From the NCBI RefSeq assembly GCF_009906955.1, contig NZ_CP047656.1, positions 3,905,001 to 3,969,000 of the forward strand: DNA of 64,000 nt, given 5' to 3'. The translations under genes and the position numbers were made by a program. Of the stretch, positions 15,891 to 44,266 are shown one piece after another. The DNA is from Paraglaciecola mesophila. Lineage in GTDB: Bacteria > Pseudomonadota > Gammaproteobacteria > Enterobacterales > Alteromonadaceae. The notes under the pieces were generated by a model that was given only the letters and a program-made list of their open reading frames with translations, was not told the DNA's origin and searched no databases. Position 1 is the stretch's first letter, and every line of letters starts with the position of its first letter.

Positions 15891-15968
15891 TTTGAGATCT
15901 CCGTTGTGTCTTTAAATGTATTTAAGGCGGCTTGTTGTGTGCGCGTGATTAAAGGTGTTGATGCTGTG

Positions 15969-18698: not shown

Positions 18699-18755
18699 AA
18701 TAGCTCTATTCTCCGTATTATTGGTTTAGTTTGACGTGCTTTTCCGTAGAGGTGC

Positions 18756-18937
18756 TGTTACCAAATGCTTTAATTGTTGTTACCAAATTGTGATTTATTT
18801 TGTTATTTTGTTAACCTCTTTGGCTATATAACCATAATAATTCGGCATGATCCAGTTGGTATTTATCATTTTATTAACAATTTCGTTTTGGTAGCCATAA
18901 TATTTGGCATGCCCTTATGCTCTTTTGGTATTACCAA
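18756..18937. promoter_or_regulatory. cluster of TTGGTA/TACCAA half-sites with one full operator, upstream of the beta-helix lipoprotein
   Basis: TACCAA occurs at 18759 and 18781, TTGGTA at 18856 and 18888, and the complete inverted repeat TTGGTATTACCAA at 18925-18937. The last fits TNGTNNNACNA, the operator pattern of FadR-type GntR regulators. The region is otherwise AT-rich and gene-free between the lipoprotein start (18698) and the PL7 stop (19068). A similar TTGG-N5-CCAA site lies upstream of the PL7 gene. Confidence 0.55.
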
Positions 18938-19067
18938 TATTCTTGGTGTGGTTTGGCTATAAGCCATTGGAGCTGCATTACGTACAGAAAGGATGGTATT
19001 TAATGGAAATGAAGTGAAAGCAAGCTGAAGGATACGGCACACGTTGTGCCGTATTTGGAATTGGGGG

Positions 19068-20747: not shown

Positions 20748-23700
20748 ATGTTCAAAAACGGAATGATCTGGGTCGTACTATCCGTCTTTTTCAGTATTGG
20801 CATTAGCGCGAGTGAAAGGACTTTCTTTAGTTTTACGCCAGCTAACTTTAGTAAACAGCTCTCGCAAAAAACAGTTCGCCAAGTATACCAAGATAGCACT
20901 GGGTATTTGTGGTTTGTTACCCAAGAAGGGCTTAGCCGCTATGACGGATACCAACTGCTTAAATTTGTGCACGATCCCCGAGACCCCAGTTCAATCAGTT
21001 CAGATAACGTCCGTTCAATACTAGAAGATAACCAAAAACGCTTATGGATAGTCACTGACGGAGGAGGATTAAATCGCTTCGAGCCATTAAGCCAAACATT
21101 CACTAAATGGCGTGCAGGTGGTGAAAAGTCTCAATCTATTATTTCAGATCATATTCGAAGCATGTATTTGGCAAGCGATGGAGCAATTTGGTTAGGCTAT
21201 AACAACGGTAGTTTTAGTCGTTTGAATCAAAATGATATGAAGTTCGAGCACTTTAACACGCGCGAATTGCTACCTGAACTGACGAAAAATGCATTCGTCA
21301 CATCTATTGCCGAAGATAAACATAATATTTGGCTAGCCACGGATGGAAATGGGCTTTTGCAGCTTAATAAAGATACTTATCAACTCAGGCGTTATTTTAA
21401 GGGAGGAATATTCCCTTTGTTTAGTGACAGGCTTACCAAGGTTTTTATTGATAACCAAAAGCGTATTTGGTTGACGAGTTATGATGCCGGTATCAGTATT
21501 TTTGAGGTAGAAAAAAACACTTTCTCCGCGTGGCGTCACGATCCGCGGAAAATTCGCAGTATTGCTTCTGATTTGGTTCATACAGTTTATCAAGATCACC
21601 ATCAACGATTATGGTTCGGTACAGAAGGGGGCCTAAGTCTTTTTGACGAAAACGGCGGCTTTACCACGTTTAAAAAAAATAATGGTATGAGTGACAACAA
21701 AATACTCTCGATACTTCAGGACCCTTCGGGAATAATGTGGTTAGGCACCTATAGTGGTATTACAAAAGGCATAGAAGTCCCCTTTGAACAAATTGATAAG
21801 GGCCTTGCGAGCAAGATTGTATTAGGCTTCGCGGAAACTACATCAAGTAAAGGCGAGCGAACAATTTGGGTCGCAGGGTATGACGGGTTAACTCAGTTAG
21901 ACAGTGCGGGTCAGGTTCAAAACGTGTTAAATGCCCAGAGCGTCCCAGCGTTAAATGACACTCGAGTGATGACAGTAAGTGGTGACAAACATATCTTGTG
22001 GTTTGGCACCAGAGGTGGAGGCCTTGGACGGTTAAACGTTGATACTATGGAAGTCGATTATTTGGTTCATGACCCAAATAACTCTGCAAGTTTGAGCTTT
22101 GATGGTGTTACCAGTATTCACCTAGATCAAGATAAAAATCTATGGGTTGGCACCTTTGGTGGAGGGCTTAATCTGTTAAAACATAATGGTAATGGCTTTG
22201 CTCATTTTAGAGAGCAGCACGGAGACCTGAGAAGTTTAAATCATGATCGGGTTGTTGCGGTATCCGAATTACTTGACGGTAGAATAATTGTTGGAACAAT
22301 TAAAGGCATTAATATCTTTAATCCCACTTCGTTGGATTTCGATCGCATCGAACATGAACCGGATAATGTTGATAGTTTATCAGCACCTATGGCATGGGCA
22401 TTTTATCAAGATGATGCTGAACAACTTTGGGTTGGTACGCAAGGCGGCGGTCTGAATCAGTGGCGTAAAAAAGACCTTAAGGCACTAAATAACCATTTTA
22501 GTCGCTACAATAGTGTGAATGGATTACCGAGTAGCCACATTTACTCTATTCAAGCAGATGAAATGGACAATTTGTGGTTAAGTAGCACTGCTGGTTTATC
22601 ACGGTTTAATCCCGCGACTGGAAAAATTCGCCATTTCGATTCATCGCAAGGCTTAAACGATAGTGAGTTTAATTTCGGTGCAGGCTTTACTGATAGCCAA
22701 GGTGTTATGTATTTTGGCGGTAATTTTGGTTTTGTACGCTTTCAACCAAATGAGATAAAAGACAGCAAGACAGTCCCGCCTGTGGTGTTAGTGCGTATTA
22801 AAAAGTTAAATGAAGAAGTGGGTGTCGATATACAGTACCAAGAGCAGCATGAAATCGTGCTCAATTATCTGGATTACTATATCTCGTTTGAATTTGCGGC
22901 CCTGGATTTTAACGCTCCAGAACTGAATGAATACCGCTACAAATTAGAAGGGTTAGATCCTAACTGGGTTGAACTAGGGCACGCTCGGTTGGCTTCTTTC
23001 AGTAACTTACCACCGGGCAAGTATGTTCTTAAGGTGCAAGCGAGTAATCATTTAGGCTTGTGGAATTCCGAAGGGGTCGCACTGCAGATTCGAGTATTAC
23101 CTCCACCATGGCGAACTTGGTGGGCGTATAGCGTTTATGCCATTCTTTTGATTGTCATTGTGCTTGACGTTATCCGGCGTTATCGTCTCAAACAACAACG
23201 TGCGTCTCAGCATTTAATTGATTTGGAAGAAAAGGTAGAAGAGCGTACGACCGATCTGCGTTTAGTCAATGAAAAGTTAGAACAAATCAGTTTTACAGAT
23301 CCGCTTACTGGGCTTAAAAATCGTCGCTACTTAACACAGCACTTGGACAATGATGTGGAGTTAATTCTTGCTAAGCATCGAGAGTATTCGTTGAATCAAT
23401 CTCAACTAGCGTCTAAAGATGCAGATTTAATTTTCTTTTTAATGGATTTAGATCACTTTAAGCAAGTTAACGATAAGTATGGGCACAGCGCCGGAGATGC
23501 GGTCCTTGTGGCCGTTAAGTCTATCTTGGAGACCGTATTTCGTGATACCGACTATCTACTGCGTTGGGGCGGGGAAGAATTTCTTATTGTTGCACGTTTT
23601 GTTGACCGTAGTAGTGCCGCGACACTAGCTGAGCGACTACGATGTGCTATTCAAGCACATCGGTTTAACATTGAAGACAATACTGCAATAAACGTGACGT

Positions 23701-23963
23701 GTTCGATTGGTTTTAGTGTGTTCCCATTGCTATCCAATCAACCAACGGTCTTGAACTGGGAGCGAACGATAGATGTGGCTGACTTGTGTCTTTATGCAGC
23801 GAAAAAGTCTAACCGTAACACCTGGGTTGGCTTATTAGACTTAACGTGCGACGAGCAAGATGTCTTTTCAGCAGTGGTGGATAAAACCGAACAGCTCATT
23901 CAGTCAGGGCAATTGACTCTGGTTAGCTCAATCTCAGATATCAACAACATACGCTGGCGCTAA
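20748..23963 (+). CDS. periplasmic-propeller sensor with diguanylate cyclase (GGEEF) output
   Basis: This 1071-residue protein has a signal peptide (about 1-21) and then about fourteen Reg_prop repeats forming two beta-propellers (about 35-680; for example VRQVYQDSTGYLWFVTQEG). A Y_Y_Y domain follows (about 700-770), then a transmembrane helix near 780-805, a short coiled coil (LEEKVEERTTDLRLVNEKLE) and a GGDEF domain. The active site is RWGGEEF at 939-945. An inhibition-site RxxD (R932-D935) lies exactly five residues before GGEEF, so feedback control by c-di-GMP is likely. Such propeller sensors bind oligosaccharides in Bacteroidetes hybrid systems, and the divergent PL7 gene suggests alginate products as the signal (inferred). 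It is paralogous to the hybrid kinase at 34871. Confidence 0.93.
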   Translation: MFKNGMIWVVLSVFFSIGISASERTFFSFTPANFSKQLSQKTVRQVYQDSTGYLWFVTQEGLSRYDGYQLLKFVHDPRDPSSISSDNVRSILEDNQKRLWIVTDGGGLNRFEPLSQTFTKWRAGGEKSQSIISDHIRSMYLASDGAIWLGYNNGSFSRLNQNDMKFEHFNTRELLPELTKNAFVTSIAEDKHNIWLATDGNGLLQLNKDTYQLRRYFKGGIFPLFSDRLTKVFIDNQKRIWLTSYDAGISIFEVEKNTFSAWRHDPRKIRSIASDLVHTVYQDHHQRLWFGTEGGLSLFDENGGFTTFKKNNGMSDNKILSILQDPSGIMWLGTYSGITKGIEVPFEQIDKGLASKIVLGFAETTSSKGERTIWVAGYDGLTQLDSAGQVQNVLNAQSVPALNDTRVMTVSGDKHILWFGTRGGGLGRLNVDTMEVDYLVHDPNNSASLSFDGVTSIHLDQDKNLWVGTFGGGLNLLKHNGNGFAHFREQHGDLRSLNHDRVVAVSELLDGRIIVGTIKGINIFNPTSLDFDRIEHEPDNVDSLSAPMAWAFYQDDAEQLWVGTQGGGLNQWRKKDLKALNNHFSRYNSVNGLPSSHIYSIQADEMDNLWLSSTAGLSRFNPATGKIRHFDSSQGLNDSEFNFGAGFTDSQGVMYFGGNFGFVRFQPNEIKDSKTVPPVVLVRIKKLNEEVGVDIQYQEQHEIVLNYLDYYISFEFAALDFNAPELNEYRYKLEGLDPNWVELGHARLASFSNLPPGKYVLKVQASNHLGLWNSEGVALQIRVLPPPWRTWWAYSVYAILLIVIVLDVIRRYRLKQQRASQHLIDLEEKVEERTTDLRLVNEKLEQISFTDPLTGLKNRRYLTQHLDNDVELILAKHREYSLNQSQLASKDADLIFFLMDLDHFKQVNDKYGHSAGDAVLVAVKSILETVFRDTDYLLRWGGEEFLIVARFVDRSSAATLAERLRCAIQAHRFNIEDNTAINVTCSIGFSVFPLLSNQPTVLNWERTIDVADLCLYAAKKSNRNTWVGLLDLTCDEQDVFSAVVDKTEQLIQSGQLTLVSSISDINNIRWR

Positions 23964-28936: not shown

Positions 28937-30460
28937 ATGCCTGATATTGATAGTTATGTTGGCCAGCCCTATTTAGCCAATCCACACGACAAATTATTGA
29001 ATCTAGATGAAGGCATTCAGCTAAATCTAGACAGTATTTGCGAATTGGTTTTACCCATTTTCGATGCCCACTTCTGTCGCTTGTTTTGTTGTTATGACAA
29101 GACAATGTTTTTAGTGTCTCAAAAGGGGGAAATGAATCAAGTAACTCAACAGCTGATTATTAGCAAAAAAGAATTAGTAGCATTAGCGCAGAGTAGCAAT
29201 TCGTTGAATACGCTTGCGCGTATTACAACCCCAAATGACGAAAGCCTACTTCGTCATATCTCTCCTATCATTTTACCGTCAGGTCTTGTATTTGGTTATC
29301 TCGAATTTTACCGAGACAAGGGGGCAAGTCTAAATTCTAAAGAGCAAGCGATTATTACTGTACTTCAGCGAGATATCGGTAACCATCTTTTACAACATAA
29401 ACATTTGCTTGCAGCGGCAAAATCGCGGGAATTACACCTTCTTATCTCGAAACACAATCGAGACTGGATCTTTGTGAAGGACACCGACTTTAGAATTGTT
29501 TATGCCAATGAAGCGTTTTTAAATGCATACCCGCAAGCCGCTAGCAGCATAAGTGAACAAGACCCATCATCTTCTATGTATCAGTCTATTACTACCGCAG
29601 CGTCGCTGGAGCAAGATAAAATCGCTTTATCTCAGGGCCAGAGCGTGACCACCGAAGACATGACCGCAGCAGACGGGAGTATCATGGTATATGAAACGGT
29701 AAAACGGCGATTCGAGGATGGCGACGGGGTCCCTTATATTTTATGTATACGCAGAGACATCACGGAGCGTGAAAGATTTATTCGGCAGTTAAAAGAAGCA
29801 AATAATGATCTAGATGACTTTACTAAGATTGCCTCCCATGACTTAAAAGCGCCTTTAAATGCAATTCGGCGATTGCTTAGCTGGATTGAAGAGGACTGCC
29901 AACATATATTGCCTGAAGAGTCTGTCGAGAACTTACGCCTAGTGATTAGCCGAGCGAATAGAATGCAGTCGTTGCTAGAAGACCTACTGACGTTTGCTAA
30001 GATTGGTAGAGAAGATAAAACCGTCACGTGCATAGAATTGGCAAAGTTAATTTCAGATTTAAACCCCTTGTTGGATTTACCTGCAGGATTTGAAATTAAC
30101 GTGGAGCCAGCAGAGTTAGTGGTGCCAAGCGTACCGTTTAAGACCGTTATGCTCAATTTAGTTGGTAATGCGATTAAACACAATGACAAAGACTTGGGCA
30201 AAGTGGAAGTCGGATGCAAGATAAACAAGTTTTGCTATGAAATCAGTATTAGCGACAACGGACCTGGTATTGAGGAGAAATACTTCGAACGTATTTTTCA
30301 ATTGTTTCAAACGCTTAAATCCCGAGACGAACTAGAAGCCAGTGGAATTGGTTTAGCTGTGGTGAAGAAATACGTTAATCAGTTTGGTGGAAGAATAGAA
30401 ATAGACTCTGATGGCGTAAACGGCACGACTTTTACGGTTTTTTGGCCTAAACCTAAATAG
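28937..30460 (+). CDS. cytoplasmic PAS-domain histidine kinase
   Basis: This 507-residue protein has no transmembrane segment. A GAF-like N-terminal region (about 20-160) is followed by a PAS domain at about 165-280 (RDWIFVKDTDFRIVYANEAF) and a PAC end (YILCIRRDITERERF). The H-box is IASHDLKAPLNAIRRLL with His301, and the HATPase_c boxes are NLVGNAIKHND, ISDNGPGIE and SGIGLAVVKKYV. AAAGGAG precedes the ATG, 20 bp after the receiver gene. It shares the HDLKAPL signature of the kinase at 27041, so both may feed the same receivers. The PAS ligand is not evident. Confidence 0.92.
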   Translation: MPDIDSYVGQPYLANPHDKLLNLDEGIQLNLDSICELVLPIFDAHFCRLFCCYDKTMFLVSQKGEMNQVTQQLIISKKELVALAQSSNSLNTLARITTPNDESLLRHISPIILPSGLVFGYLEFYRDKGASLNSKEQAIITVLQRDIGNHLLQHKHLLAAAKSRELHLLISKHNRDWIFVKDTDFRIVYANEAFLNAYPQAASSISEQDPSSSMYQSITTAASLEQDKIALSQGQSVTTEDMTAADGSIMVYETVKRRFEDGDGVPYILCIRRDITERERFIRQLKEANNDLDDFTKIASHDLKAPLNAIRRLLSWIEEDCQHILPEESVENLRLVISRANRMQSLLEDLLTFAKIGREDKTVTCIELAKLISDLNPLLDLPAGFEINVEPAELVVPSVPFKTVMLNLVGNAIKHNDKDLGKVEVGCKINKFCYEISISDNGPGIEEKYFERIFQLFQTLKSRDELEASGIGLAVVKKYVNQFGGRIEIDSDGVNGTTFTVFWPKPK

Positions 30461-30559
30461 TGCAACGAATACTAATGAATTCATATTAGTAAAATACCGC
30501 CTTCCTAGTATTAAGGTGTATTGAATTTATTCAACGTGCGAGCTTATCTGGATGGTGCA

Positions 30560-32269
30560 ATGAAAGTTTTGATAGTAGATGATGATATCGTTGATAGAAA
30601 AGTGGTAAAGCGAACTCTGTGCGCATCTAGCGACTCCCATCACGATGTTCAAGAAGCCACGTCAGCCGCGCAAGGAATGAGCCTGTTAAGTGCCAACCAA
30701 TTTGATGTCATTTTACTTGATTACAGAATGCCAGAAGTTGACGGCATTGAGATGGTGAGTGACATGCGCGCCAAACCCGATATGGGCAACACCGCAATTG
30801 TAATGATCAGTGCCTATGATGAACCTTCATTAGCACTGGATTGTATTGAGGCAGGTGCGCAAGATTTTTTATCGAAAAGTGAAATTACGCTCAACAAACT
30901 TGAGAAAGCGATTCTCTACGCCAACAAACGCTTCGAAATTGAACAGCGTATGCATAAAAGTTATTTAGCCGTTAAGAAAATGGCTGAGAAAGATCCGCTA
31001 ACTGGCTTGTCTAATCGTTATCACTTTGAAGAAACGTTAAAAATATTGATTGCAAGTAACAAGCGCCTGACCAGCAAGGTTGCGTTACTCGCGTTAGATT
31101 TAGATAACTTTAAACATATTAACGACACCTTGGGTCATGCCGCGGGTGACAAAGTACTGCAGCAATCCGTTAAACGAATGCGCAAGTGTCTGCGCAATAA
31201 CGAGGGCTTTGCTCGGCTGGGTGGTGATGAGTTCGCCATTATTTTAGGCAATATAATCTCTGGTGATGAAATCAGCCGCATCGCTAATCGCATTCTTGAC
31301 TCGTTCAACGTTGCATTCAATATTGATGATAAAGAGGTGCACTGTGGTGTGAGCATTGGTGTAGCTCTATGTCCAGATGACTCGGTTAACGCGCAAACGT
31401 TACTTAAATGCGCAGATATTGCGATGTACCGGGCGAAACAAAATGGCAAGAACGGGGTAAGCTTTTATGAATCCTACTATCAAACCGAGTTTAACCAGCG
31501 TTTCTTAATTCAGAACGAATTGATTGGTGTCTTGGAAAACGCCTCGTTTAGATTGCTTTATCAACCTTTGTTTTCAGCTACTGATAAATCCTTATTAGGC
31601 TTTGAAGCGCTTATTCGATGGCCGGAAATAGAGCCTTATTTTACGCCAGAGGAATTCATTCCTGTGGCGGAGCAAAGCAAGCTGATAAATCGCATCGGGC
31701 AATGGGTAATTGCTACTGCGTTGCATCAGTTATCTCAGTGGCATAGTCAATTTAATGCGGCTCTCACTATGTCGGTGAATATTTCTGCTGTACAGCTGCA
31801 TGACATCGAGCTGTTACCTTATTTATCGCATACCCTTGAAAAGCTGTCGCTACCTGCAAGTAGCGTTATATTAGAAATTACAGAAACAGCACTGATTAAG
31901 GACAACAAAAAGGTAACTGATATATTACGCGTTTTGTCTGGGCGTGGGTTTAAGATAGCCCTTGATGACTTCGGTATGGGCTTCTCTTCGGTATCGCATT
32001 TAATGGAATACCCTATTGATATTGTTAAATTAGACAAGAGCATGCAAACCTCTAATGATAGTTCAGACAAGCATCAGCGAATATTTAAAGCCCTCGCACT
32101 CATGCTCAAAACCTTAGACTTTGTTGTTGTTGCAGAAGGAATTGAAACGAAAGAACAACTACTGCAATGCCAACAATTTAACTTAGAACGTTTGCAAGGG
32201 AACTATTTAGGTTTGCCGTTAAATAAAGAAAAAAGTGAATTATTCCTCGCAAGTATCTTCGATGTATAG
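30560..32269 (+). CDS. response regulator with GGDEF and EAL domains
   Basis: This roughly 569-residue protein has a receiver (about 1-120: VLIVDDDIVDRK, VILLDYRMPEVDG), a GGDEF domain with intact RLGGDEFAII, and an EAL domain with GFEALIRWPE, DDFGMGFSSV and VVAEGIETKEQ. Both catalytic motifs look intact, so it could make and break c-di-GMP under phosphorylation control. There is no RxxD inhibition site five residues before GGDEF (the position reads RNNE). I start at ATG 30560 (MKVLIVDDD). A longer in-frame TTG start at 30521 adds 13 residues with no better ribosome site. It is the last gene of the four-gene cluster, 99 bp after the PAS kinase. Confidence 0.92.
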   Translation: MKVLIVDDDIVDRKVVKRTLCASSDSHHDVQEATSAAQGMSLLSANQFDVILLDYRMPEVDGIEMVSDMRAKPDMGNTAIVMISAYDEPSLALDCIEAGAQDFLSKSEITLNKLEKAILYANKRFEIEQRMHKSYLAVKKMAEKDPLTGLSNRYHFEETLKILIASNKRLTSKVALLALDLDNFKHINDTLGHAAGDKVLQQSVKRMRKCLRNNEGFARLGGDEFAIILGNIISGDEISRIANRILDSFNVAFNIDDKEVHCGVSIGVALCPDDSVNAQTLLKCADIAMYRAKQNGKNGVSFYESYYQTEFNQRFLIQNELIGVLENASFRLLYQPLFSATDKSLLGFEALIRWPEIEPYFTPEEFIPVAEQSKLINRIGQWVIATALHQLSQWHSQFNAALTMSVNISAVQLHDIELLPYLSHTLEKLSLPASSVILEITETALIKDNKKVTDILRVLSGRGFKIALDDFGMGFSSVSHLMEYPIDIVKLDKSMQTSNDSSDKHQRIFKALALMLKTLDFVVVAEGIETKEQLLQCQQFNLERLQGNYLGLPLNKEKSELFLASIFDV

Positions 32270-32521: not shown

Positions 32522-34678
32522 ATGAAACTAAAATTTAAAAAGAAAGGCGCAATGTTAGTTGCAGGAGTGATGAGCTTAACTGCTTTGCCTGCGCTTGCAT
32601 CGAGTAACGGATTGCTTGGGCTTAACTTAACTCAGGTGGTAACAAACGCAGATGTTTCAGAGTTGACTACATCGTTAGGTTTACCTGATGTGCCTGTGGT
32701 CGACAGCATATTGAAAATGAACAATGAAATATTGATTCAAGGCGGCGAGATAAAAGTCTTGCGTGAACTGATTGAAAAGATCGGTGGCTTGGTGACCCAT
32801 GAATTACCGTTGGTGGGAGGAATTGGTGTTAGAGTCAGCGACTTACAGCTGGCAATTTTGCAGAAGCTACCGAGTAGTCTTATTAAAATTACCAAAAACG
32901 ATGCGGTTTTTACTTCAAGCGCACTGGATCACTGTTCTGTTTACGGAAGCCATGTGGTCGATTTAACAGCAAATAAAATCAGCTGGAATTTATACAACGC
33001 AAAGGATATGAAAGCGAACGCAGAGGAAATGACCTTCACTTGGCCTGAGCGTTTAGGGCAAGTTCGCTCAGTAAAATTTAATGGAAGGTTAGTATATTGG
33101 AGTTTATTTGGTCGTCAAAATGGCGAGTTAACACTGGATGCGAACGCCTTAAAGCGCTACGCCAATTTAGATGCCTACGAGAGTGCGACTGTCGAGGTCT
33201 CATTTACGCGATATGGGGCTGATAATTACACCCAAGGCGACTTCTCTATGGATGTTGAGTTTGCGCAAGGGTGTGATCGAAGTTTAGTTAAAGGGTATGA
33301 CACTCAAGCTAATAGCGAAGACAGCAATAGCTACTATGTTAATAACATTGGAGCTGATGAGCTGCATGATAATGGTATTACGGGTAAAGATGTCACGGTT
33401 GCCGTTATTGATAGCGGGCTTTGGGCTGCACACAGTGCACTAAGACAAAATACACAAAATCGCTCACGTATCACAGCAGCATATGATGCCCTTGAAGATA
33501 CTGAAGTGAAAGTGAGGAATATGACTGATGAAAACAGTCACGGTACTCACATTACAGGCATTATTGCCAATAGTGATCGTGCTGTTGTTGATGGGCAAAT
33601 GCGCAGTTATTATCAAGGTGTTGCCCCAGACGCTAACCTAGTGGTAGTAAAAGCGTTCTATGAAGACGGCCACAGTACCTACCTAGATGCGTTACGCGCA
33701 TTGCAGTACATCGCGGATAATCACAAAGCATTGAATATACGCGTGGTGAACTTATCGTTCGGTGCACCTCCTCGTTCTAATTACTGGGATGACCCAATTA
33801 ACCAAGCTGTTATGGCACTTTGGGAACAAGATGTTGTGGTTGTGACATCAGCGGGTAATACCGGGCCAAGTGCAATGACCATTGGCGTGCCCGCTAACGT
33901 ACCTTACGTTATCAGTGTTGGTGCCATCAGTGATAACTACACCCAAGATAACCCGAACGATGATACCTTGCTTTCATTTTCTTCTCAGGGGCCGACTCAC
34001 GAGGCGTTTATCAAACCCGATATGGTCGCGCCTGGTGGGCACATGTTCAGCTTAGCGAATGAAGATATGTATGTGCCAAGCAAGTTTCCTCAGTACATGG
34101 TAGGTAAAGACCGATTTATTATGTCTGGCACATCTCAAGCGTCGGGTGTGGTCAGTGGTGTTGTCGCTCTAATGCTGCAAAACGATCCAAGCTTGAGCGC
34201 GAATGATGTGAAGTGCCGTTTGATGAGTAGTACGACTATGGCCCAAGTGAATGGCAAACTGGCTTATAGCCCATTTCAACAAGGTTCAGGCAGTGTGAAT
34301 GCGGTGAAAGCCGTTGAATCGAGTGAATCAGGTTGTGCAAATAATGGCATGGATATCGCTGCCGATCTAAGTGGTGAGCAACATTACATGGGGGCTGCAC
34401 GTAAAGACGAGAACGGCAATTACTACATAAAAGGTTTTGAGTTCGAAGTGTGGGAAGAAGCCTTCATGTGGGAAGAAGCCTTCATGTGGGAAGAAGCCTT
34501 CATGTGGGAAGAAGCTTTCATGTGGGAAGAAGCCTTCATGTGGGAAGAAGCCTTCATGTGGGAAGAAGCCTTCATGTGGGAAGAGGCCTTCATGTGGGAA
34601 GAGGCCTTCATGTGGGAAGAGGCCTTCATGTGGGAAGAAGCGCATATGAACCAAGAGAACTTCATGCTTCAAGAATAA
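32522..34678 (+). CDS. exported subtilisin-like (S8) protease with C-terminal WEEAFM repeats
   Basis: This 718-residue protein has a signal peptide (KKGAMLVAGVMSLTALPALA, about 8-27). A roughly 250-residue N-terminal region of unrecognised type with two cysteines follows, then a subtilase domain with the full catalytic triad: Asp297 in AVIDSGLW, His340 in NSHGTHITG, Ser538 in MSGTSQASG. After about residue 600 comes an acidic linker. Residues 644-703 are ten perfect copies of the hexapeptide WEEAFM, followed by WEEAHM and the end NQENFMLQE. I know of no sorting signal of this form. The protein should be periplasmic, surface-bound or secreted. AAGGG precedes the ATG and a terminator follows the stop. 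Confidence 0.93.
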   Translation: MKLKFKKKGAMLVAGVMSLTALPALASSNGLLGLNLTQVVTNADVSELTTSLGLPDVPVVDSILKMNNEILIQGGEIKVLRELIEKIGGLVTHELPLVGGIGVRVSDLQLAILQKLPSSLIKITKNDAVFTSSALDHCSVYGSHVVDLTANKISWNLYNAKDMKANAEEMTFTWPERLGQVRSVKFNGRLVYWSLFGRQNGELTLDANALKRYANLDAYESATVEVSFTRYGADNYTQGDFSMDVEFAQGCDRSLVKGYDTQANSEDSNSYYVNNIGADELHDNGITGKDVTVAVIDSGLWAAHSALRQNTQNRSRITAAYDALEDTEVKVRNMTDENSHGTHITGIIANSDRAVVDGQMRSYYQGVAPDANLVVVKAFYEDGHSTYLDALRALQYIADNHKALNIRVVNLSFGAPPRSNYWDDPINQAVMALWEQDVVVVTSAGNTGPSAMTIGVPANVPYVISVGAISDNYTQDNPNDDTLLSFSSQGPTHEAFIKPDMVAPGGHMFSLANEDMYVPSKFPQYMVGKDRFIMSGTSQASGVVSGVVALMLQNDPSLSANDVKCRLMSSTTMAQVNGKLAYSPFQQGSGSVNAVKAVESSESGCANNGMDIAADLSGEQHYMGAARKDENGNYYIKGFEFEVWEEAFMWEEAFMWEEAFMWEEAFMWEEAFMWEEAFMWEEAFMWEEAFMWEEAFMWEEAFMWEEAHMNQENFMLQE
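34451..34648 (+). repeat. 18-bp tandem repeat array encoding WEEAFM x10 plus WEEAHM
   Basis: Eleven in-frame 18-bp units start at 34451 and recur every 18 bp. Six of the first seven are identical at the DNA level, the fourth has one silent change (GCC to GCT), units 8-10 share a GAA to GAG change, and the eleventh is diverged. The near identity implies recent expansion, and shared silent variants show block duplication. All six frames are open across it, which is a by-product of the period. Confidence 0.95.
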
Positions 34679-34870: not shown

Positions 34871-37800
34871 ATGTTCAAAACAGGAATTTATTGGTTTGTA
34901 TGTTTTCTCACTTTTAGCCTTAATGCGCACAGTGCTGATAGCCCGAATTTCAGCTTCACCCCAGCGGAATTAAGTCAGCAATTAACACAAAAAACAGTAC
35001 GTCAAATATATCAAGACTCTACCGGTTATATATGGGTTGTCACCCAAGAAGGTATAAGTCGCTATGATGGCTATCAACTCCTTAGTTTTGTACACGACCC
35101 ACGCAAGCCCGATAGCCTAAGCTCAGATAATGTTCGAGCGATACTTGAAGATCATAAACAGCGCTTGTGGATTGCTACTGATGGAGGTGGCTTAAACCTC
35201 TTCAATTCGGCCAAACAAACCTTTTCTCATTGGAAAGCCACAAAAAATTCAACCAATTCACCCACTTCAAACAGGCAACAGTCACTATACTTAGATTCTG
35301 AAAATAATATTTGGCTAGGTTATCGAGATGGTAACTTTAGTCGTTTTAACCCAGACAATATGTCGTTTGAGCATTTCGATACGCGCACACTTCTACCCGA
35401 GCTAGAAAAAGACGCAGCAATCACAGCAATCATTGAAGATGGTCAGTGTATTTGGTTAGCCACTGACGGAAATGGGTTACTTAAGCTCGACAAGCAAACC
35501 AATACACTAATACGCCTGCATACAGGTGCCACCAATCCATTCTTTAGTGATCGACTAACTCAACTATTCATTGATGTACAACAACGTTTATGGATAACCA
35601 GTCATGATGCTGGGATCAGTATGCTGGATCCACAGCGCTTAAAGTTTACTACTTGGCAGCACAATGAAAATCAGCCTAGCAGTATCGCGGCTGATTTAGT
35701 TCACACTATTTATCAAGATCAGAAGCAACGTATTTGGTTAGGAACCGAAGCGGGAGCGAGTCTTTGGAACGGACGCAATAAATTCACTAGCTACAATACA
35801 GAAGATGGCTTAAGCGATAATAAAGTGTTGTCGATTTTGCAAGACCCTTCTGGGTTGATGTGGTTCGGGACATATAACGGCATTACGAAGAATATCGAGG
35901 TGCCGTTTGAGCATATTGATAGCGGATTAGCTAGCAATGTTGTACTTGGTTTTGCTGAAACAAAGTCATCCACTGGTGAGCGGGCTATTTGGGTCGCAAG
36001 TTATGGGGGCTTAACGCGTCTTAATAGCCAGGGCGAAGTCAGCGCGGTGATTAACAAAAGCAGTAAACCCGCTCTACAAGATGCAAGGGTTATGACAGTG
36101 CGTGGTGATAACAATCTACTTTGGTTTGGTACCCGAGGCAGTGGATTAGGGCGACTTAATGTGGATACGATGAACATCGAGACCTTTGTCCATGACCCGG
36201 ACAATCCCAATAGTTTGAGTTTTAACGGAGTGACTAGTGTATTTCCTGATAGTGCGGGCAATATATGGGTTGGTACGTTCGGTGGAGGCTTAAATTACTT
36301 ACCCGCAGGAAGTACTGATTTTGTTCATTACCGAGCAGATGAAAATAATCCTAGAAGCCTTAATAGCGATAGAGTGCTCGCAATGTATCAGTTGCTAGAT
36401 GGAACGATAATTGTTGGGACTGTGGCCGGCATCAATGTTATGGATCCAGTCACGCTTGATTTTGATCATATAGAACACCAGCCTGATGATTTTGATAGTT
36501 TATCTGCTCCCATGGCGTGGGCCTTTTACCAAGACGCCAAAGCGCAATTATGGGTCGGAACCCAAGGCGGTGGTCTCAATAAATGGTCTGCCCAAGACAA
36601 AGCTCTGCTTCACAATCACTTCACCCGTTATGACAGTTTTAGTGGCTTACCCAGTAGTCATATCTATGCAATCTTACAAGATGATAGAGAGCACTTATGG
36701 CTGAGCAGTACAGCGGGTTTAACCCGTTTGAACCCAGATACAGGGCACGTACGTCATTTCGATACCTCCCAAGGCTTAAAAGACAGTGAGTTTAATTTTG
36801 GTGCAGGTTTTAAGGACAGCCAAGGGGTCATGTATTTTGGTGGTAATGCCGGAGTTGTGCGTTTTCACCCTGACGATATCAAAGACAGTGACGTGGTACC
36901 GCCCGTGGTCTTGGTACGCATTAAAAAGTTAAATGAGCAGGTATGGTTTGATGTGCCTTACCAACGTTTGCAAGGCTTAGAGCTTGACTACAAAGATTAT
37001 TTTATTTCTTTTGAATTTGCCGCGCTTGATTTCAATGCCCCTGGTTTAAATCAATATCGTTACAAGTTAGAAGGTCTGGATCCAAATTGGATAGAGCTAG
37101 AGTATCGGCGGCTGGCGACGTTTACTAATCTCCCCGCAGGTGACTATGTACTGAAAGTGCAAGCCAGTAACAATCAGGGTTTATGGAACACCCAAGGTGT
37201 TTCGTTACCCATTAATGTGTTACCACCGCCTTGGAAGACCCTATGGGCCTATGCACTTTATGGCCTGATTGTTTTACTAATCATGCTGAATATTATCTGG
37301 CGATATCGGCAAAAACGTATGCGTGAGATGAAACAGCTGATTGAACTCGAAGAGAAGGTAGAAGAGCGCACTAAAGAACTACGCCATGCTAATACTCAGC
37401 TTGAACACTCCATGGAAGAAACTGAAAAAGCCCGTAGGTTAGCCGAACAAGCGAGTAAAGAGAAAAGTGACTTCTTAGCCATTATGAGTCACGAAATTCG
37501 TACCCCAATGAACGGGGTATTGGGGATGACCGAGGTACTGCTAAGTTCTGATCTGAAGCCAAAACAACAACATTTTGCTCAATTAGTTTATCGCTCTGGT
37601 AGGCTATTGCTGGACTTACTCAACAATATTTTGGATTTCTCAAAGCTGGAGGCCGGCAAGGCCACGCTGGAGTCTGTGCCAGTTGACTTAGAAGCCCTTA
37701 TTGAGGAAGTGACGGATCTATTTAGTGAAGCCGCTTATAATAAAGGGCTGAATATAAATGCCATTTTATCACCAGAACCCTTACCGCAAGTGTATGCGGA

Positions 37801-39475
37801 CCCTGCACGATTACGCCAGATTATTGCCAACCTAACCAGTAACGCAATCAAGTTTACCGAGCGCGGGGAAGTGAACGTCAGTATTAAGCGTGTCGCCTGT
37901 CACAATATTCTTTCAGGTGGGGATGATGCCGGTGTTCAACATAGCGGTTTTGTTTTCTGCGTTCAGGATACAGGGATTGGTATGGCGCCAGATCGCCAGC
38001 AAAAAGTATTTGAAATGTTTACCCAAGCGGATGCATCAACCACGCGGAAATACGGTGGTACTGGACTCGGTTTAGCCATATGTAAGCAATTAACTGCCCT
38101 AATGGGAGGTAACTTAGGTGTACAGTCTAATATCGGTGAAGGCAGTCGCTTTAGTTTGGAAGTTGATCTCCCCCTGACGGCAAACCCGCTGGCGCAACTT
38201 GGATCGATTGATAATTGCCCGACGGTGCACTTGGTCAACCTAACGGGAGGCTTAGGCCAATCAATCGAGGTTATGCTTGGAAAATTAAATATAAAAGCGG
38301 TGCACGTACAGCGCGTTAAATCTGAGTTAGCCAGTGCTAAAAATGGCTTATGGATCAGCCAAGCTGAATATGAGCGTACTTTGTTAGAGGCTGGGATCCC
38401 CTTGTCGAACTGGATCTGTTTACTTCCCACTTCACAGTGGCAGGAGAATGACACACGAAACATATTGCCATTGCCAGTGCACTTTAGTGGCTTACATAAC
38501 AGCATAAGTCGCGCTTTGGGTATTGAAACTGAGGAGCAACAGCGTCTAGATGACGACCTTCGAAATCACCAGCGGTTTGAAGCAAATATTCTGGTAGCAG
38601 AAGACAGCCTCACCAACCAGGAAGTCGCTAAAAGCATGTTAGGTCTCTTGGGGTGTGAAGCTTGGCTTGCTGACAATGGTGCAGAGGCGGTTGAGCAAAT
38701 CAATCTGCAACGGCCTGACCTAGTGCTCATGGACTGCCAAATGCCAGTAATGGATGGTTATGCGGCTACCAGAGCAATCCGTAAAAATTGGCCTGATATT
38801 CCCATTGTCGCGCTCACAGCTGGGATGGGTGACAATTTACGCCAACAGTGTTTGGATGCCGGCATGAATGACGTTATGTCTAAACCTTTTTCGTTGCAAG
38901 AGTTAGAGCAAACACTGCTTCGCTTTTTGCCTGTACCTAGCGGGCAGAAATCTAGAGATGTTTTTGAAGCGCCGACGTTACCGGAGCACACTTCACCGGA
39001 TAAAAATAGCGGCGAAGCGTTCAAGGTAAATCAACAAGCGCAAACTCATGACCAAACAGAGGCGCTTGATGTCGTGTCAGAGCGTGCGCCAAATGAGCCT
39101 GATCCTGTTGAGCAAGATACTCTACTGGATATGTCAACAGTCGAAACGTTGCGCAAAATTTCCCAAGACACAGGCAATCCAGTGTTTGAGCGAGTACTCG
39201 ACGCATTCAAGCAAGAGGCCGAAAAACTCGTTTCTCAGTTGGTTGGGCAAGTACAGCAAGAGCCCCTCGATTTCTTAACGATTGGTGAAACAGCGCATGC
39301 GCTTAAGTCGATGTCGGGGAACGCTGGGGCAAAAGCCTTATACGAATTGTGTAGAGAGCTAGAGGAAAAAATGAAGAATACTCAAAGTGATAATATTCAT
39401 TCTTTAGTTCAGCGCATTCAGTTGGCGTTTACTACTAGCAGCGAGAAATTGGAGACATTCAGACATGTCGAATGA
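34871..39475 (+). CDS. propeller-type hybrid sensor kinase (HisKA-HATPase-receiver-HPt)
   Basis: This 1534-residue protein has a signal peptide, two Reg_prop beta-propellers and a Y_Y_Y domain (about 30-770), a transmembrane helix near 785-805 and a coiled coil. Its histidine kinase core has His874 in FLAIMSHEIRTPMNG and ATP-binding motifs NLTSNAIKF, DTGIGM and GTGLGLAICKQL. A degenerate receiver-like stretch follows (about 1115-1220), then a true receiver with Asp1288 in DLVLMDCQMPVMDG and a C-terminal HPt domain with His1476 in ETAHALKSMSGN. This makes a complete His-Asp-His phosphorelay. The sensor half is closely similar to the cyclase at 20748. It overlaps the next gene by 11 bp. Confidence 0.94.
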   Translation: MFKTGIYWFVCFLTFSLNAHSADSPNFSFTPAELSQQLTQKTVRQIYQDSTGYIWVVTQEGISRYDGYQLLSFVHDPRKPDSLSSDNVRAILEDHKQRLWIATDGGGLNLFNSAKQTFSHWKATKNSTNSPTSNRQQSLYLDSENNIWLGYRDGNFSRFNPDNMSFEHFDTRTLLPELEKDAAITAIIEDGQCIWLATDGNGLLKLDKQTNTLIRLHTGATNPFFSDRLTQLFIDVQQRLWITSHDAGISMLDPQRLKFTTWQHNENQPSSIAADLVHTIYQDQKQRIWLGTEAGASLWNGRNKFTSYNTEDGLSDNKVLSILQDPSGLMWFGTYNGITKNIEVPFEHIDSGLASNVVLGFAETKSSTGERAIWVASYGGLTRLNSQGEVSAVINKSSKPALQDARVMTVRGDNNLLWFGTRGSGLGRLNVDTMNIETFVHDPDNPNSLSFNGVTSVFPDSAGNIWVGTFGGGLNYLPAGSTDFVHYRADENNPRSLNSDRVLAMYQLLDGTIIVGTVAGINVMDPVTLDFDHIEHQPDDFDSLSAPMAWAFYQDAKAQLWVGTQGGGLNKWSAQDKALLHNHFTRYDSFSGLPSSHIYAILQDDREHLWLSSTAGLTRLNPDTGHVRHFDTSQGLKDSEFNFGAGFKDSQGVMYFGGNAGVVRFHPDDIKDSDVVPPVVLVRIKKLNEQVWFDVPYQRLQGLELDYKDYFISFEFAALDFNAPGLNQYRYKLEGLDPNWIELEYRRLATFTNLPAGDYVLKVQASNNQGLWNTQGVSLPINVLPPPWKTLWAYALYGLIVLLIMLNIIWRYRQKRMREMKQLIELEEKVEERTKELRHANTQLEHSMEETEKARRLAEQASKEKSDFLAIMSHEIRTPMNGVLGMTEVLLSSDLKPKQQHFAQLVYRSGRLLLDLLNNILDFSKLEAGKATLESVPVDLEALIEEVTDLFSEAAYNKGLNINAILSPEPLPQVYADPARLRQIIANLTSNAIKFTERGEVNVSIKRVACHNILSGGDDAGVQHSGFVFCVQDTGIGMAPDRQQKVFEMFTQADASTTRKYGGTGLGLAICKQLTALMGGNLGVQSNIGEGSRFSLEVDLPLTANPLAQLGSIDNCPTVHLVNLTGGLGQSIEVMLGKLNIKAVHVQRVKSELASAKNGLWISQAEYERTLLEAGIPLSNWICLLPTSQWQENDTRNILPLPVHFSGLHNSISRALGIETEEQQRLDDDLRNHQRFEANILVAEDSLTNQEVAKSMLGLLGCEAWLADNGAEAVEQINLQRPDLVLMDCQMPVMDGYAATRAIRKNWPDIPIVALTAGMGDNLRQQCLDAGMNDVMSKPFSLQELEQTLLRFLPVPSGQKSRDVFEAPTLPEHTSPDKNSGEAFKVNQQAQTHDQTEALDVVSERAPNEPDPVEQDTLLDMSTVETLRKISQDTGNPVFERVLDAFKQEAEKLVSQLVGQVQQEPLDFLTIGETAHALKSMSGNAGAKALYELCRELEEKMKNTQSDNIHSLVQRIQLAFTTSSEKLETFRHVE

Positions 39476-41237
39476 GGCAAAAGTTAACATTCTCGTTTGT
39501 GATGATGACCTAACAGCGCGGATCTTAATGAAAGAAACGCTAGCGAGCGACAGTATTGAGGTCATCGAAGCCGAAAATGGCCAGCGGGCAATTGAGCAGT
39601 TCGAAAAGCATTCACCAGCGCTTCTATTGCTTGATGTGTCGATGCCCAAGATGAATGGCTTTGAGGTGTGTGAACATATTCGTGAGCACAAGAAAGGTAA
39701 ACATATTCCTATCATTATGGTAACGGGCTCTGATGATCTGGAATCCATTCATAAATCCTATGCGGTAGGCGCAACAGACTTTATCGCTAAACCCATTAAA
39801 TGGCCCATTTTGGGGGAACGGGTTAAGTATATTTTGCGTGCCAGTCAGGCATTCGCTGATTTAGTGACGCAACAGCAAGAGCTTCATCAATTGGCATTTT
39901 ATGACTCGTTAACTGGGCTACCTAATCGCCAATACCTTATGCAGGATTTACAACGTTTTTTAGCCATGGCCCAGCGTAATCATTATCAGGCTGCCATGCT
40001 ATTTATCGACCTTGATCGCTTTAAGCGTATCAACGACACCATGGGGCACAGCTACGGCGATAAATTGTTGCGCAAAGTGGCACATCGTTTACAGGCCAAT
40101 CTGCGGGACAGTGACACCTTTGCTCGTGTGGGCTCAGAACAATCTAGCCAAGAACCGCAGTTGTCGAGTTTTGGTGGGGATGAATTTACTATATTTTTAA
40201 GCCGATTAAACGATCCTAACGAAGCCATGCTGGTGGCAGAGCGTGTGATACGTAGCTTTAGTACGCCATTTCAATTAGAGCAGTTTGAAGTTGTGGTCAC
40301 CCCAAGTATCGGCATTTCAATGTTCCCTAATGATGGAGATAACGCCGAAACCTTGCTTAAAAATGCCGACACTGCCATGTACTTTGCCAAACAGTCTGGC
40401 CGTTGTTGTTATAAATTTTATCAAGACTCAATGAATGCTAAGGCGGCAGCACGTTTGCAGTTAGAGCAAGATTTGCGCAGAGCGCTTAAGAGCGACGAGA
40501 TTGTACCCTTTTATCAACCTCAGATTTGTGCCCAGTCAGGGCGTATAGTCGGGGTGGAAGCGTTAGTGCGTTGGCTTCCAGCGAAAGGAGGGATTATCCC
40601 ACCGGATGAGTTTATTCCTATTGCAGAAGAAACTGGCCTGATAAATGAGTTAGGCCGTTTGGTGTTAGAGAGAGGGTGTTATCAAGCGAAACAATGGTTC
40701 AATGAAGGCAATCCTGTACGTATGGCAATCAATGTGTCGGCTCATCAGTTTAGGCAATTAGATTTTACCCAAGTCGTAGCAGACGTATTACGGCAATCTG
40801 GCCTTGCCCCTGAATTACTGGAGTTAGAGCTGACCGAATCGGTGATTATGAGCGATGCAGAAGAAAATATAGCTCGCTTGATTGAATTAAAAGCCTTGGG
40901 TGTTTCATTAGCTGTTGATGATTTTGGAACTGGGTACTCGTCATTAAGTTATTTGAAACGCTTTCCTATCGACATACTCAAAATAGACCGCTCATTTATG
41001 TGTGATGTTAATTCAGCTCCCGATGATTTAGCGATAGTCGAGGCGATACTTGCGCTGGCAGAAAGTTTGAAGCTCGGGGTGATTGCGGAAGGAATTGAGT
41101 ATGGAAGCCAGATTGCCATTTTGAAAAACACTAAGCAATTATTATTACAAGGTTACTTGTTTTCACGCCCTGTTGCAGCGGAATATATTTCGCCGTTGCT
41201 TAACCAAGACTTTAACCATTTGATGCCAGGATTATGA
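39465..41237 (+). CDS. response regulator with GGDEF and EAL domains, insertion before GGDEF
   Basis: This 590-residue protein has a receiver (about 7-125: NILVCDDDLTARI, LLLLDVSMPKMNGF), a GGDEF domain and an EAL domain (GVEALVRW, DDFGTGYSSLSYL, VIAEGIEYG). The inhibition-like motif RDSD and following TFARV are canonical, but about 14 extra residues (GSEQSSQEPQLSSF) separate them from GGDEF. Both catalytic motifs appear intact. It overlaps the upstream hybrid kinase gene by 11 bp and the downstream sigma-54 activator by 4 bp (ATGA). It is therefore the expected phosphate acceptor of that kinase's HPt domain and the c-di-GMP arm of the operon. Confidence 0.93.
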   Translation: MSNEAKVNILVCDDDLTARILMKETLASDSIEVIEAENGQRAIEQFEKHSPALLLLDVSMPKMNGFEVCEHIREHKKGKHIPIIMVTGSDDLESIHKSYAVGATDFIAKPIKWPILGERVKYILRASQAFADLVTQQQELHQLAFYDSLTGLPNRQYLMQDLQRFLAMAQRNHYQAAMLFIDLDRFKRINDTMGHSYGDKLLRKVAHRLQANLRDSDTFARVGSEQSSQEPQLSSFGGDEFTIFLSRLNDPNEAMLVAERVIRSFSTPFQLEQFEVVVTPSIGISMFPNDGDNAETLLKNADTAMYFAKQSGRCCYKFYQDSMNAKAAARLQLEQDLRRALKSDEIVPFYQPQICAQSGRIVGVEALVRWLPAKGGIIPPDEFIPIAEETGLINELGRLVLERGCYQAKQWFNEGNPVRMAINVSAHQFRQLDFTQVVADVLRQSGLAPELLELELTESVIMSDAEENIARLIELKALGVSLAVDDFGTGYSSLSYLKRFPIDILKIDRSFMCDVNSAPDDLAIVEAILALAESLKLGVIAEGIEYGSQIAILKNTKQLLLQGYLFSRPVAAEYISPLLNQDFNHLMPGL

Positions 41238-44200
41238 TTCAAAGCTCTCCTGTATTTTCCGCCTTCGTTGAGGATATTGAACGTATTAGATTGTATGTTG
41301 AAAAGCCCAATGTACCGCTTGTGGCTGAGTTGCAGCAGTACGTTGCCGCAACTGAGTTTCAATTCGATATTGTGCTATTGAGTTCGGCACTAACGGATAA
41401 TGACACACCTGAGCAATATCTAGGTGGCGCGCTGTTAGTCGCATGCGACTCACAAGAACATGCACTAACCCTGACAGAAGAGTACGCTTTGTTAGAACAA
41501 CCAGTGCATTGGCTGGTCGAAAATACTGTTGATTTGCAAAACAATCAGTTAATCCCAGGGCATCACTTTGTTGATTGGCGAGCCGCTGGTGTGCTAACCA
41601 TGATGCTAAGCCAATTGAAACAACAAGCTAATATTCACCAAGACAAGGTGTACGTGGAGCACAAGTTAGCTTTGTTATCTGATTGCTTGGGGAGTTTATC
41701 GCTTACGTTAAGCGCCGATGGCACGATTAAGCACATTAACCAAGAGTTAATGTTGAAAATGGGTACTAAGGGGCTTTCCGCCAAGGGACAACGCTGGCAG
41801 ACCAGTCTACCTATACCGTCGAGTACGGCGAAGACGCGAATGCAGCAAATTTTAGCGGACTTAAGTCATACTCACTCAATGACTAGGCTTCCTCCTTTTC
41901 CTATTCAATTAGATAAAACCGTATTGATGGTCGATGGGGTCGCAGGGCCGCTTCCTAACGATGAAAGTTTGCTTATTTTACGGCAAGTTGCCCAGTGGCA
42001 GAGTCATGAATGGGTTGAACAATTAAGTGAGCAAAGCACACCCGTCACCTTGTTGCTGGTTAACCCGGACGACTTTGCCGAATTAAACCGAATGCATGGG
42101 CGAGAAGTCGGCGACCAAGTGCTTGAAGAGATCATGCAATGTATGTTCCAGGTACTTCGCGCAGATGATTTTGCCAGTCGATATAGCGGAGCCGTTTTTG
42201 CAGCTCATTTACCCGAAACTAATGAACAGCAAGGCCAAGTGCTAGCATCACGCATGCTACAGAAACTGCGAAGTCAGGCTTTTTCAAAAAAGAAACTCAA
42301 TCTTGCGTTTAGTTTTGGACTTGCTACCTTGGACTCTGAAGAGCTTTTAGGTGAGCAATCACCATTGGAGTTATTCAGACGAGCCAATGCAGCTCTTCAA
42401 GCTGCCCGTAGCATTGGAGGCGGGAAGCTAGTCAGTTGGCAGCCTCAGTTTGATGCTAATATTTTGGCCAACCTTGACCGTATGAGCGGCAAGTTTTCTC
42501 AAGCCCCCAGTGACGATTTCAGGTTAATGAACCTTCAGTGGGATATTATTCGCCTAATCGGCAGCACACATTCTTTACAGACATTTTCATCGCAAGTATG
42601 CCAGTTGCTGGCAACCGGGCTACAGAGTAAGTTTACCGGTTTGTATATGCAGCAAGGTGCGCACTTTAAGTGTCTGTCATCTCGCTTGACTAGCTCTGAC
42701 ATTGATGAAGATACCATTCACCAGTGGGCCAAAACACATATTAAGCTGGCCCCTAACGGGAGCAAGTTAGTACAACCAACGGCTGCGCTTGGTTCCTTTC
42801 ATTATGTGGTCATTCCTTTAGTTACGCGCAGCCATTGTGTCGGGTTTCTATTGGCATGCTGGGAGTCATCCGCTCAAGAAAGTGCCAAAAAATGCGCTGA
42901 ACAACTTGCCCAGGTCACCCCAAATTTAGCGGCGGCAATTGATCGAATCATGTTACTAGAGCAAGACGAAAATAGGCGTGTTGGTGCGGATAAAGAGCTA
43001 TCAGGTGAGCACGAATTGTTGTTTGAATCACCTGCAATGCGTACCTTAATGCAACAAGTTCAATTAGTGGCCCCCACGGATGCATCTGTGTTAATTATCG
43101 GTGAATCAGGTACGGGTAAAGAGGTGATCGCTCAGCAGATCCACAATCACAGTTTGCATCCTGATAAACCATTTATAACGGTTGATTGCTCGACCATTGT
43201 AGAACACCTTATGGAAAGTGAGTTGTTTGGCCACAGACGTGGAGCCTTTACTGGGGCAACAAGTGATCAACCGGGTAAAATTGCGCAAGCAGACGGCGGT
43301 ACTTTGTTTTTAGATGAAGTAGGCGAGCTACCACTGGATATTCAATCAAAGTTACTGCGTTTTGTGCAGGAAAAAACGTTCGTTGCTGTGGGTGACCAGA
43401 GGGTGCGTAAGGTGGATGTACGCTTGGTTTTGGCGACCAACAGAAACTTACCTGATGAGGTGGCACAAGGGCGTTTCCGAGCCGATTTATATTATCGTAT
43501 CAATGTATTTACTTTAAATCTGCCTGCCTTGAATGAGAGGGGAAATGATCCGCTCATGCTAGCTCGACACTTTATTCAAAAGTTTGCCCGCCAATATAAT
43601 AAAGATATTAGCGACTTTTCTACCGCGTCACTGGGTAAGCTAGAGAAGTATCACTGGCCTGGAAACGTGCGCGAATTACGTAACTGCATGATGCGAGCGG
43701 TCATTTTGTGTTCAGAAGGATATATAGAGCCAGAGCATCTTATTTTACAAGAACCATCAGATGATAATGTGGTACCGATTAAACCAAATGTCGCGTCAAT
43801 TCCATCGATTAACGCCTGTGACGTAAGTGAAGTTCAAAGTGAAGAACTAAGACAAGTCGCCGTGCTGCTCACTGAAGTGGTTGCGCTGGTAAAACAGCAA
43901 GCCAAGGTGTTATCCGTGAGTAACTGGTTAGAAAAACAATGGTTGAATCAATGTGTTTTAAAATGGGGGAGTTTATATCAGGTCGCACAACAGTTAGCTC
44001 AATCCGAATCTACCATTCGCAGACGCTACGCTAAGCTCAACAAACAAGATTTCAGCCAAGATGAGTTATCTCCATTGACTGAGCGTTGCAATCATTTGTT
44101 TGAGAGTATGCTTGATACCGAGACGCATAATACTTTGTGGCCAAGTATAGAGGCGACATTGCATCAAATAGTCATTCAACAAGACGTAAGTCAACAGCAG

Positions 44201-44266
44201 AAAGCCAAACTGCTAGACGTGACGCAGCCTACCTTACGCAAAATTATCCAACAATCTCAAGGGTGA
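41234..44266 (+). CDS. sigma-54 activator with degenerate I-site GGDEF and GAF domains
   Basis: This 1010-residue protein has an unrecognised N-terminal region (1-150), a PAS-like stretch, and a GGDEF-fold domain (about 255-400). The active site of that domain is SGAVF (318-322) instead of GGDEF, but RxxD is kept at R309-D312, exactly five residues before it. A GAF domain follows (about 430-570), then a sigma-54 AAA+ domain (about 590-830: GESGTGKEVIA, GAFTGA, LFLDEVGELPL, WPGNVRELRN). The C-terminus is a long helical region ending in a helix-turn-helix (KAKLLDVTQPTLRKIIQ). The intact GAFTGA loop predicts contact with sigma-54. Binding of c-di-GMP by the I-site is inferred. The ATGA overlap couples it to the GGDEF-EAL gene. 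Confidence 0.92.
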   Translation: MIQSSPVFSAFVEDIERIRLYVEKPNVPLVAELQQYVAATEFQFDIVLLSSALTDNDTPEQYLGGALLVACDSQEHALTLTEEYALLEQPVHWLVENTVDLQNNQLIPGHHFVDWRAAGVLTMMLSQLKQQANIHQDKVYVEHKLALLSDCLGSLSLTLSADGTIKHINQELMLKMGTKGLSAKGQRWQTSLPIPSSTAKTRMQQILADLSHTHSMTRLPPFPIQLDKTVLMVDGVAGPLPNDESLLILRQVAQWQSHEWVEQLSEQSTPVTLLLVNPDDFAELNRMHGREVGDQVLEEIMQCMFQVLRADDFASRYSGAVFAAHLPETNEQQGQVLASRMLQKLRSQAFSKKKLNLAFSFGLATLDSEELLGEQSPLELFRRANAALQAARSIGGGKLVSWQPQFDANILANLDRMSGKFSQAPSDDFRLMNLQWDIIRLIGSTHSLQTFSSQVCQLLATGLQSKFTGLYMQQGAHFKCLSSRLTSSDIDEDTIHQWAKTHIKLAPNGSKLVQPTAALGSFHYVVIPLVTRSHCVGFLLACWESSAQESAKKCAEQLAQVTPNLAAAIDRIMLLEQDENRRVGADKELSGEHELLFESPAMRTLMQQVQLVAPTDASVLIIGESGTGKEVIAQQIHNHSLHPDKPFITVDCSTIVEHLMESELFGHRRGAFTGATSDQPGKIAQADGGTLFLDEVGELPLDIQSKLLRFVQEKTFVAVGDQRVRKVDVRLVLATNRNLPDEVAQGRFRADLYYRINVFTLNLPALNERGNDPLMLARHFIQKFARQYNKDISDFSTASLGKLEKYHWPGNVRELRNCMMRAVILCSEGYIEPEHLILQEPSDDNVVPIKPNVASIPSINACDVSEVQSEELRQVAVLLTEVVALVKQQAKVLSVSNWLEKQWLNQCVLKWGSLYQVAQQLAQSESTIRRRYAKLNKQDFSQDELSPLTERCNHLFESMLDTETHNTLWPSIEATLHQIVIQQDVSQQQKAKLLDVTQPTLRKIIQQSQG

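Follow-up and report, generated by a model that had tools for sequence, protein, structure and literature searches.

Bacteroides hybrid two-component systems join a periplasmic propeller and a Y_Y_Y domain to a kinase output and a C-terminal AraC-type domain in the same chain. To our knowledge, most sensors of the Reg_prop/Y_Y_Y class have no known ligand, and the ligands that are known are sugars. In the Com and Agr systems, a peptide pheromone precursor is encoded next to its receptor kinase. Two papers present the Bacteroides hybrid systems as sensors of carbohydrates (PMC3404733, PMC3243724), and a third presents PorZ as a Bacteroidota beta-propeller of type IX secretion (PMC5121618).

In a 64-kb window (the whole stretch of DNA analysed) of a Paraglaciecola genome of 5.04 Mb in two contigs, we found a sensor with the same propeller/Y_Y_Y architecture and kinase output as the Bacteroides proteins, but with a protease as its neighbour. 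The sensors of such pairs have HK-REC-Hpt, GGDEF or GGDEF-EAL outputs and differ from the Bacteroides systems in this respect, and no AraC-type DNA-binding domain was found in the window sensor or the relatives scanned. The protease has the D, H, N and S residues, signal-peptide-like N-terminus and N-terminal pre-domain of the subtilases (MEROPS S8, PF00082), to which its family adds a tail formed by an array of a Trp-centred motif and, usually, a sensor partner. As in Com and Agr, a variable, signal-like repeat gene stands beside a co-diverging sensor, but in this case an enzyme carries the repeats as its tail, the receptor would be a beta-propeller and peptide release is hypothetical. PorZ is likewise an envelope beta-propeller in a pathway of exported proteins with a C-terminal signal, but it is a secretion component, and one sensor relative matches the PorZ profile below the cut-off only. 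We found no paper on the motif strings or the subtilase-sensor pairing in the open-access literature; both the repeat class and the module seem to be new to the literature, their components being known families. We propose, with a probability of roughly 0.5, that subtilase and adjacent sensor form a two-gene signalling module in which the tail is the ligand of the sensor's propeller.

The subtilase gene (Table 1) gives a Peptidase_S8 match of 163 bits against a Pfam cut-off of 21.8, with the repeat in the same frame. By eye, its N-terminus resembles a signal peptide. The catalytic triad and oxyanion Asn (D297, H340, N446, S538) are invariant in alignment A1, as are the matching columns in A2, which holds 16 diverse subfamily members. 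No NCBIfam family scored above its cut-off for this protein, and the top match, Mycosin (TIGR03921), was rejected at 135 bits against a curated cut-off of 278.75. The ORF translation gives the tail the composition that a sequence-only reading of this DNA had reported, with ten WEEAFM units at residues 644-703, WEEAHM at 704-709 and NQENFMLQE at 710-718. Tandem Repeats Finder places the array at 34449-34641 (period 18, 10.7 copies, 97% matches) and finds no other high-copy array in the window. The ten WEEAFM units encode the same peptide in different DNA, with synonymous third-base changes only (GAA/GAG, GCC/GCT). Further tandem arrays lie near the window start at 661-897 and 983-1181, their units measuring about 110 and 84 bases.

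Table 1. Features of the subtilase, its tail and the propeller sensors, in window positions.
Feature	Position	Strand	Basis
Exported S8 subtilase of 718 aa, Trp-motif tail, ATG start	32522..34678	+	ORF, Pfam
Probable Sec signal peptide (MKLKFKKKGAMLVAGVMSLTALPALA)	32522..32599	+	by eye
Peptidase_S8 domain, residues 288-577	33383..34252	+	Pfam, alignments
Conserved linker CANNGMDIAADLSGEQHYMGAARKDENGNYYI from protease domain to tail, recognisable subfamily-wide	34334..34435	+	alignments
Tail of 11 hexapeptide units, WEEAFM x10 + WEEAHM	34451..34648	+	sequence, Tandem Repeats Finder
C-terminus NQENFMLQE, kept across the genus	34649..34675	+	sequence, orthologues
Adjacent sensor, 1534 aa: Reg_prop propeller, Y_Y_Y, HisKA, HATPase, receiver, Hpt; proposed tail reader	34871..39475	+	Pfam
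Second Reg_prop/Y_Y_Y sensor, GGDEF output, paralogous	20748..23963	+	Pfam, comparison

The protease or a relative is present in 10 of the 22 genomes of the genus, the window's own counted, and the orthologue of P. chathamensis S18K6 is 97% identical to the window protein. The arrays of these orthologues are built of WEEAFM or WDEAFM and number 2 to 12 units; where the C-terminal end is available, it reads QENFMLQE or nearly so. As both array and ending recur, they are not an assembly artefact, and the repeat, in frame with Peptidase_S8, is a real C-terminal feature of an exported subtilase, as had been claimed from the sequence. Within an array, units other than the first and last differ from each other by synonymous changes only. 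One Paraglaciecola orthologue is down to two units (L010, L032), and given the range of 2 to 12 copies among the orthologues of one genus, any dosage effect must be loose.

Searches with the A2 profile recovered the subfamily in 93 of 297 genomes of the bacterial family, 4 of 274 of the class and 6 of 398 across the phylum, each count including the window's genome. The border of the subfamily is sharp, since every full-length match in the bacterial-family search scored at least 462 bits and the one other match above threshold was a 241-bit fragment. Each of the 111 complete members that we retrieved has Trp-centred tandem repeats at its C-terminus, and Trp makes up 9.2% of tail residues compared to 1.0% elsewhere. 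The main Trp-Trp spacing is 6 residues in 50 proteins, 11 in 33, 12 in 20 and 13-16 in 6. Paralogues have units of different sequence and length that keep the core [DE][GA]x[LIV]W; with per-protein weighting, position -4 is D/E in 69%, -3 is G/A in 71% and -1 is L/I/V/M in 78%. Examples are WADGYL, WNEGSI, WPNAHL, WRDGNL and WHDGSL among hexamers, LLWKVSFETDG and GSVWDGSTALE among 11-residue units and QLWRNTSFNADS among 12-residue units, and longer units also occur. Many paralogues end in NxWVx[QHP][EQ].

A search for the motif itself in 274 gammaproteobacterial genomes matched four genomes, compared to zero for a reversed control. Three of these, including the window's, carry the tails on a recognisable subtilase, and in the fourth the matching protein is a fragment at a contig end whose C-terminus is of this type. 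The proposal that the tail matches no described repeat held up in the literature and in family searches: the window tail has no Pfam or NCBIfam match, and none of ten relatives' tails exceeded a Pfam cut-off, the nearest approach being Pentapeptide_3 in one tail (26.7 against 27). With no tail above a Pfam cut-off, we rejected known repeats such as the left-handed beta-helix hexapeptide and choline-binding repeats. A loose pattern (six TGG at 18-base spacing) run on 398 genomes returned mostly low-complexity DNA, and tblastn against plasmids returned generic subtilases of less than 40% identity, two of which were read and lack the Trp tail. In viral contigs the tight motif pattern found unrelated repeats such as WGNAKV proteins; contigs L097, L100, L104, L105 and L106 encode phage-associated proteins with many WGNA[KR]V-type hexapeptides that are unrelated to the subtilase tails.

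Comparing neighbouring units, we found pN below pS in all 95 arrays (49 of hexamers, 27 of 11 residues and 19 of 12), with a median pS of 0.485 and pN of 0.047 in the hexamer arrays. This marks purifying selection between copies and shows that the unit matters as a peptide. In the 11- and 12-residue arrays, positions near the Trp (-3 to +1) are more conserved between copies than the linkers. The variable unit length and copy number speak against a regular solenoid or a single fold and for a reiterated short linear motif. We rejected the strongly amphipathic helix suggested by the sequence-only reading, as (WEEAFM)n has a hydrophobic moment of 0.000 at 100 degrees, and a helix is unlikely in other members, whose units contain G, N or P. 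The structure prediction that it had called for gave no usable model, with AlphaFold on the whole protein (eight sequences) reaching a mean pLDDT of 43 and 19-22 in the tail. The tail alone, run without an alignment, came out as a helix, which we judged unreliable because of the G, N and P in other members' units. A derivation of the tail from propeller blades was also rejected: the two have a Gx[LI]W core in common, but positions +1 to +3 differ and the tail has no Reg_prop match. We regard this resemblance as weak and as no proof of a structural relationship.

The sensor directly downstream of the subtilase scores 129.6 bits for Reg_prop and 61.2 bits for Y_Y_Y, both above cut-off, in a genome that encodes three Y_Y_Y proteins altogether. 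A promoter and terminator scan of the gap between the two genes found no site on the coding strand. Across 30 genomes, 39 of 55 repeat-tailed subtilases have a Y_Y_Y domain no more than 5 kb away, against 0.63 expected from chance placement (binomial p about 5e-63, a statistic that ignores common descent). These genomes were selected for holding the subtilase, and certain of their loci had been inspected before the association with the neighbour emerged, but the count takes in all of their subtilases from the bacterial-family search. All 39 pairs are on the same strand, with the sensor downstream in 38, and at least one pair is present in each of the 30 genomes, which have just 1-12 such sensors apiece. 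The pairing of subtilase and sensor is well shown. No sensor lies within 5 kb of the other 16 subtilases, most of which are additional paralogues from a single genus, and there the tail is kept without an adjacent reader. The suggestion that this end of the protein serves attachment or activity control had picked the right end, but the comparative evidence points to partnership with the adjacent propeller sensor.

Pairs also occur in other gammaproteobacterial families, with the same arrangement in two genomes (G055, G509) and adjacent but divergent genes in a third (G468). Within Paraglaciecola, 10 of 22 genomes have both the protease and the propeller relative, and the other 12 have neither. 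Among 21 loci, just two gene groups turned up in more than four, the subtilase and a signalling-protein group that includes the sensor; a RiPP precursor was rejected as no conserved maturase lies next door in these loci. Distances between proteases and between sensors of 28 pairs correlate with a Mantel r of 0.87, a value that contains shared species history and was reached by none of 2000 permutations, and the nearest neighbour agrees for protease and sensor in 14 of the 28. In three of four pairs from two genomes (both pairs of G838 and the GGDEF-type pair of G740), protease and sensor are nearest to the same foreign genome, which shows that the pair was inherited as one; in the other G740 pair their nearest relatives differ. 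G012 has two proteases and two sensors, each sensor beside one protease and the pairs in tandem. The whole pair is tandemly duplicated there (C1 4074517-4085668), and the second protease match contains one in-frame TAA.

The propeller of the second sensor in the window is 63% identical to that of the first, and in G012 the likely counterpart of this second sensor is directly preceded by a repeat-tailed subtilase of its own. The second sensor is possibly another reader of the tail. By eye, this sensor (in a region spanning 12849-23963) adjoins an apparent alginate lyase (19068-20075, minus strand), with cell-surface-like and TonB-receptor-like proteins also nearby, and it may also be part of a polysaccharide locus. 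The subtilase-sensor pair is itself flanked by a dense signalling region (28937-32269 and 39465-44266) encoding a PAS kinase, two receiver-GGDEF-EAL proteins and a GGDEF-sigma54 activator.

In the mechanism that we propose, the tail is a string, probably flexible, in which a single short Trp-centred motif ([DE][GA]x[LIV]W...) recurs and which would bind the periplasmic propeller of its cognate sensor, either still on the protease or as cut peptides. The sensor would then alter its phosphorelay or c-di-GMP output, and the cell could thereby track its own protease, whether in amount, export or activity. The evidence reaches as far as the gene pair and the constrained repeat; from there we infer the tail-propeller binding, the release, the direction of the signal and the controlled output. 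Several observations weigh against this reading, namely the 16 of 55 subtilases that lack a sensor within 5 kb, the swing from 2 to 12 copies within one genus and the fact that tail and blade motif have only Gx[LI]W in common; the pairing would also be expected if the sensor merely controls the protease. The strongest rival takes up this last point and makes the tail an anchoring or export element that binds the envelope, the matrix or the secretion machinery, with the sensor only regulating protease synthesis. Many retention signals are C-terminal like this tail, a free copy number suits avidity binding, and the tails without a nearby sensor fit an anchor, as they would also fit a ligand. A common anchor, however, should keep one unit type per genome, whereas the units of paralogues differ in sequence and length, and it leaves unexplained both the single sensor class next door in 30 of 30 genomes and the small secreted repeat proteins beside other such sensors. 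On balance we consider it rather unlikely.

A special case of the ligand module, which we entertain as a possibility while doubting it, is a multi-copy pheromone or reporter precursor whose repeats, once excised (perhaps by the protease's own activity), would diffuse away and be sensed free, with a separate channel for each paralogue. The near-identical copies within a protein and different units between paralogues are as expected of such a precursor, as are the purifying selection on each copy, the adjacent, co-diverging receptor-like gene and the parallel small secreted repeat proteins, but the hexamer arrays have neither spacers nor an obvious processing site, and the orthologue with two units is a poor match to multi-copy release. 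That the tail acts on its own protease domain, as autoinhibitor or substrate decoy, is improbable. Subtilase pockets suit aromatic and hydrophobic residues of the kind found in the tail, which in every aligned member accompanies an intact catalytic triad; a single site would be enough, though, so that ten or more copies, a free copy number and a changing unit length are unexpected, and the link to the sensor goes unexplained. A functionless array produced by neutral slippage would account for the varying copy number, as tandem repeats in DNA do slip, but it is very unlikely given pN below pS in every array and a tail in every complete member.

Small secreted proteins accompany other sensors of this class. 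At 8 of 42 other sensor loci, one of them in the window genome, a small protein with a signal-peptide-like start is encoded about 140-370 bp downstream on the same strand (L252:12461-12610, at G000 C1 about 1134460, and L255, L277, L289, L299, L301, L302 and L304). Four consist mostly of a tandem Arg-containing motif, GTKRSQVRI (L255), GTRRTQVRI (L277), GTRPGTVRI (L289) or MGTTKVRIK (L304), and three end in one copy-like sequence, VGSVRF (L252), GNRGVRI (L299) or GRRAVRI (L302); the L301 protein lacks a GxxxxVR[IF]-like ending. Our tandem-repeat flag has a lax threshold that also catches low complexity (18 of 231 near, 5 of 358 far), and the argument from small proteins relies on the GxxxxVR[IF]-like group alone. 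These proteins are possibly a second type of repeat-encoded sensor ligand. That sensors of one class also stand next to another kind of secreted protein with repeats points to a principle in which the neighbour supplies a repeat-encoded ligand. As a tentative generalization, gammaproteobacterial exported proteases and small repeat proteins might carry private multi-copy peptide signals, each read by its own propeller kinase or cyclase; we know of no Gram-negative bacterium with peptide sensing of this class.

The pairing predicts a defined peptide ligand sequence, gene by gene, for many sensors. If the proposed module is correct, it would mean that, beyond the ways already known, Gram-negative bacteria can monitor exported enzymes through a repeat-encoded signal borne by the enzyme, and would provide natural motif-receptor pairs of differing specificity within one genome. 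In several of the small-protein loci, a conserved ORF of 33-34 aa, with endings like IEIKEMPASTWWN, lies 3' of the small repeat protein (L255:11312-11413, L277:9735-9836, L289:9786-9887, L299:4156-4257, L302:4128-4229 and L304:3933-4031).
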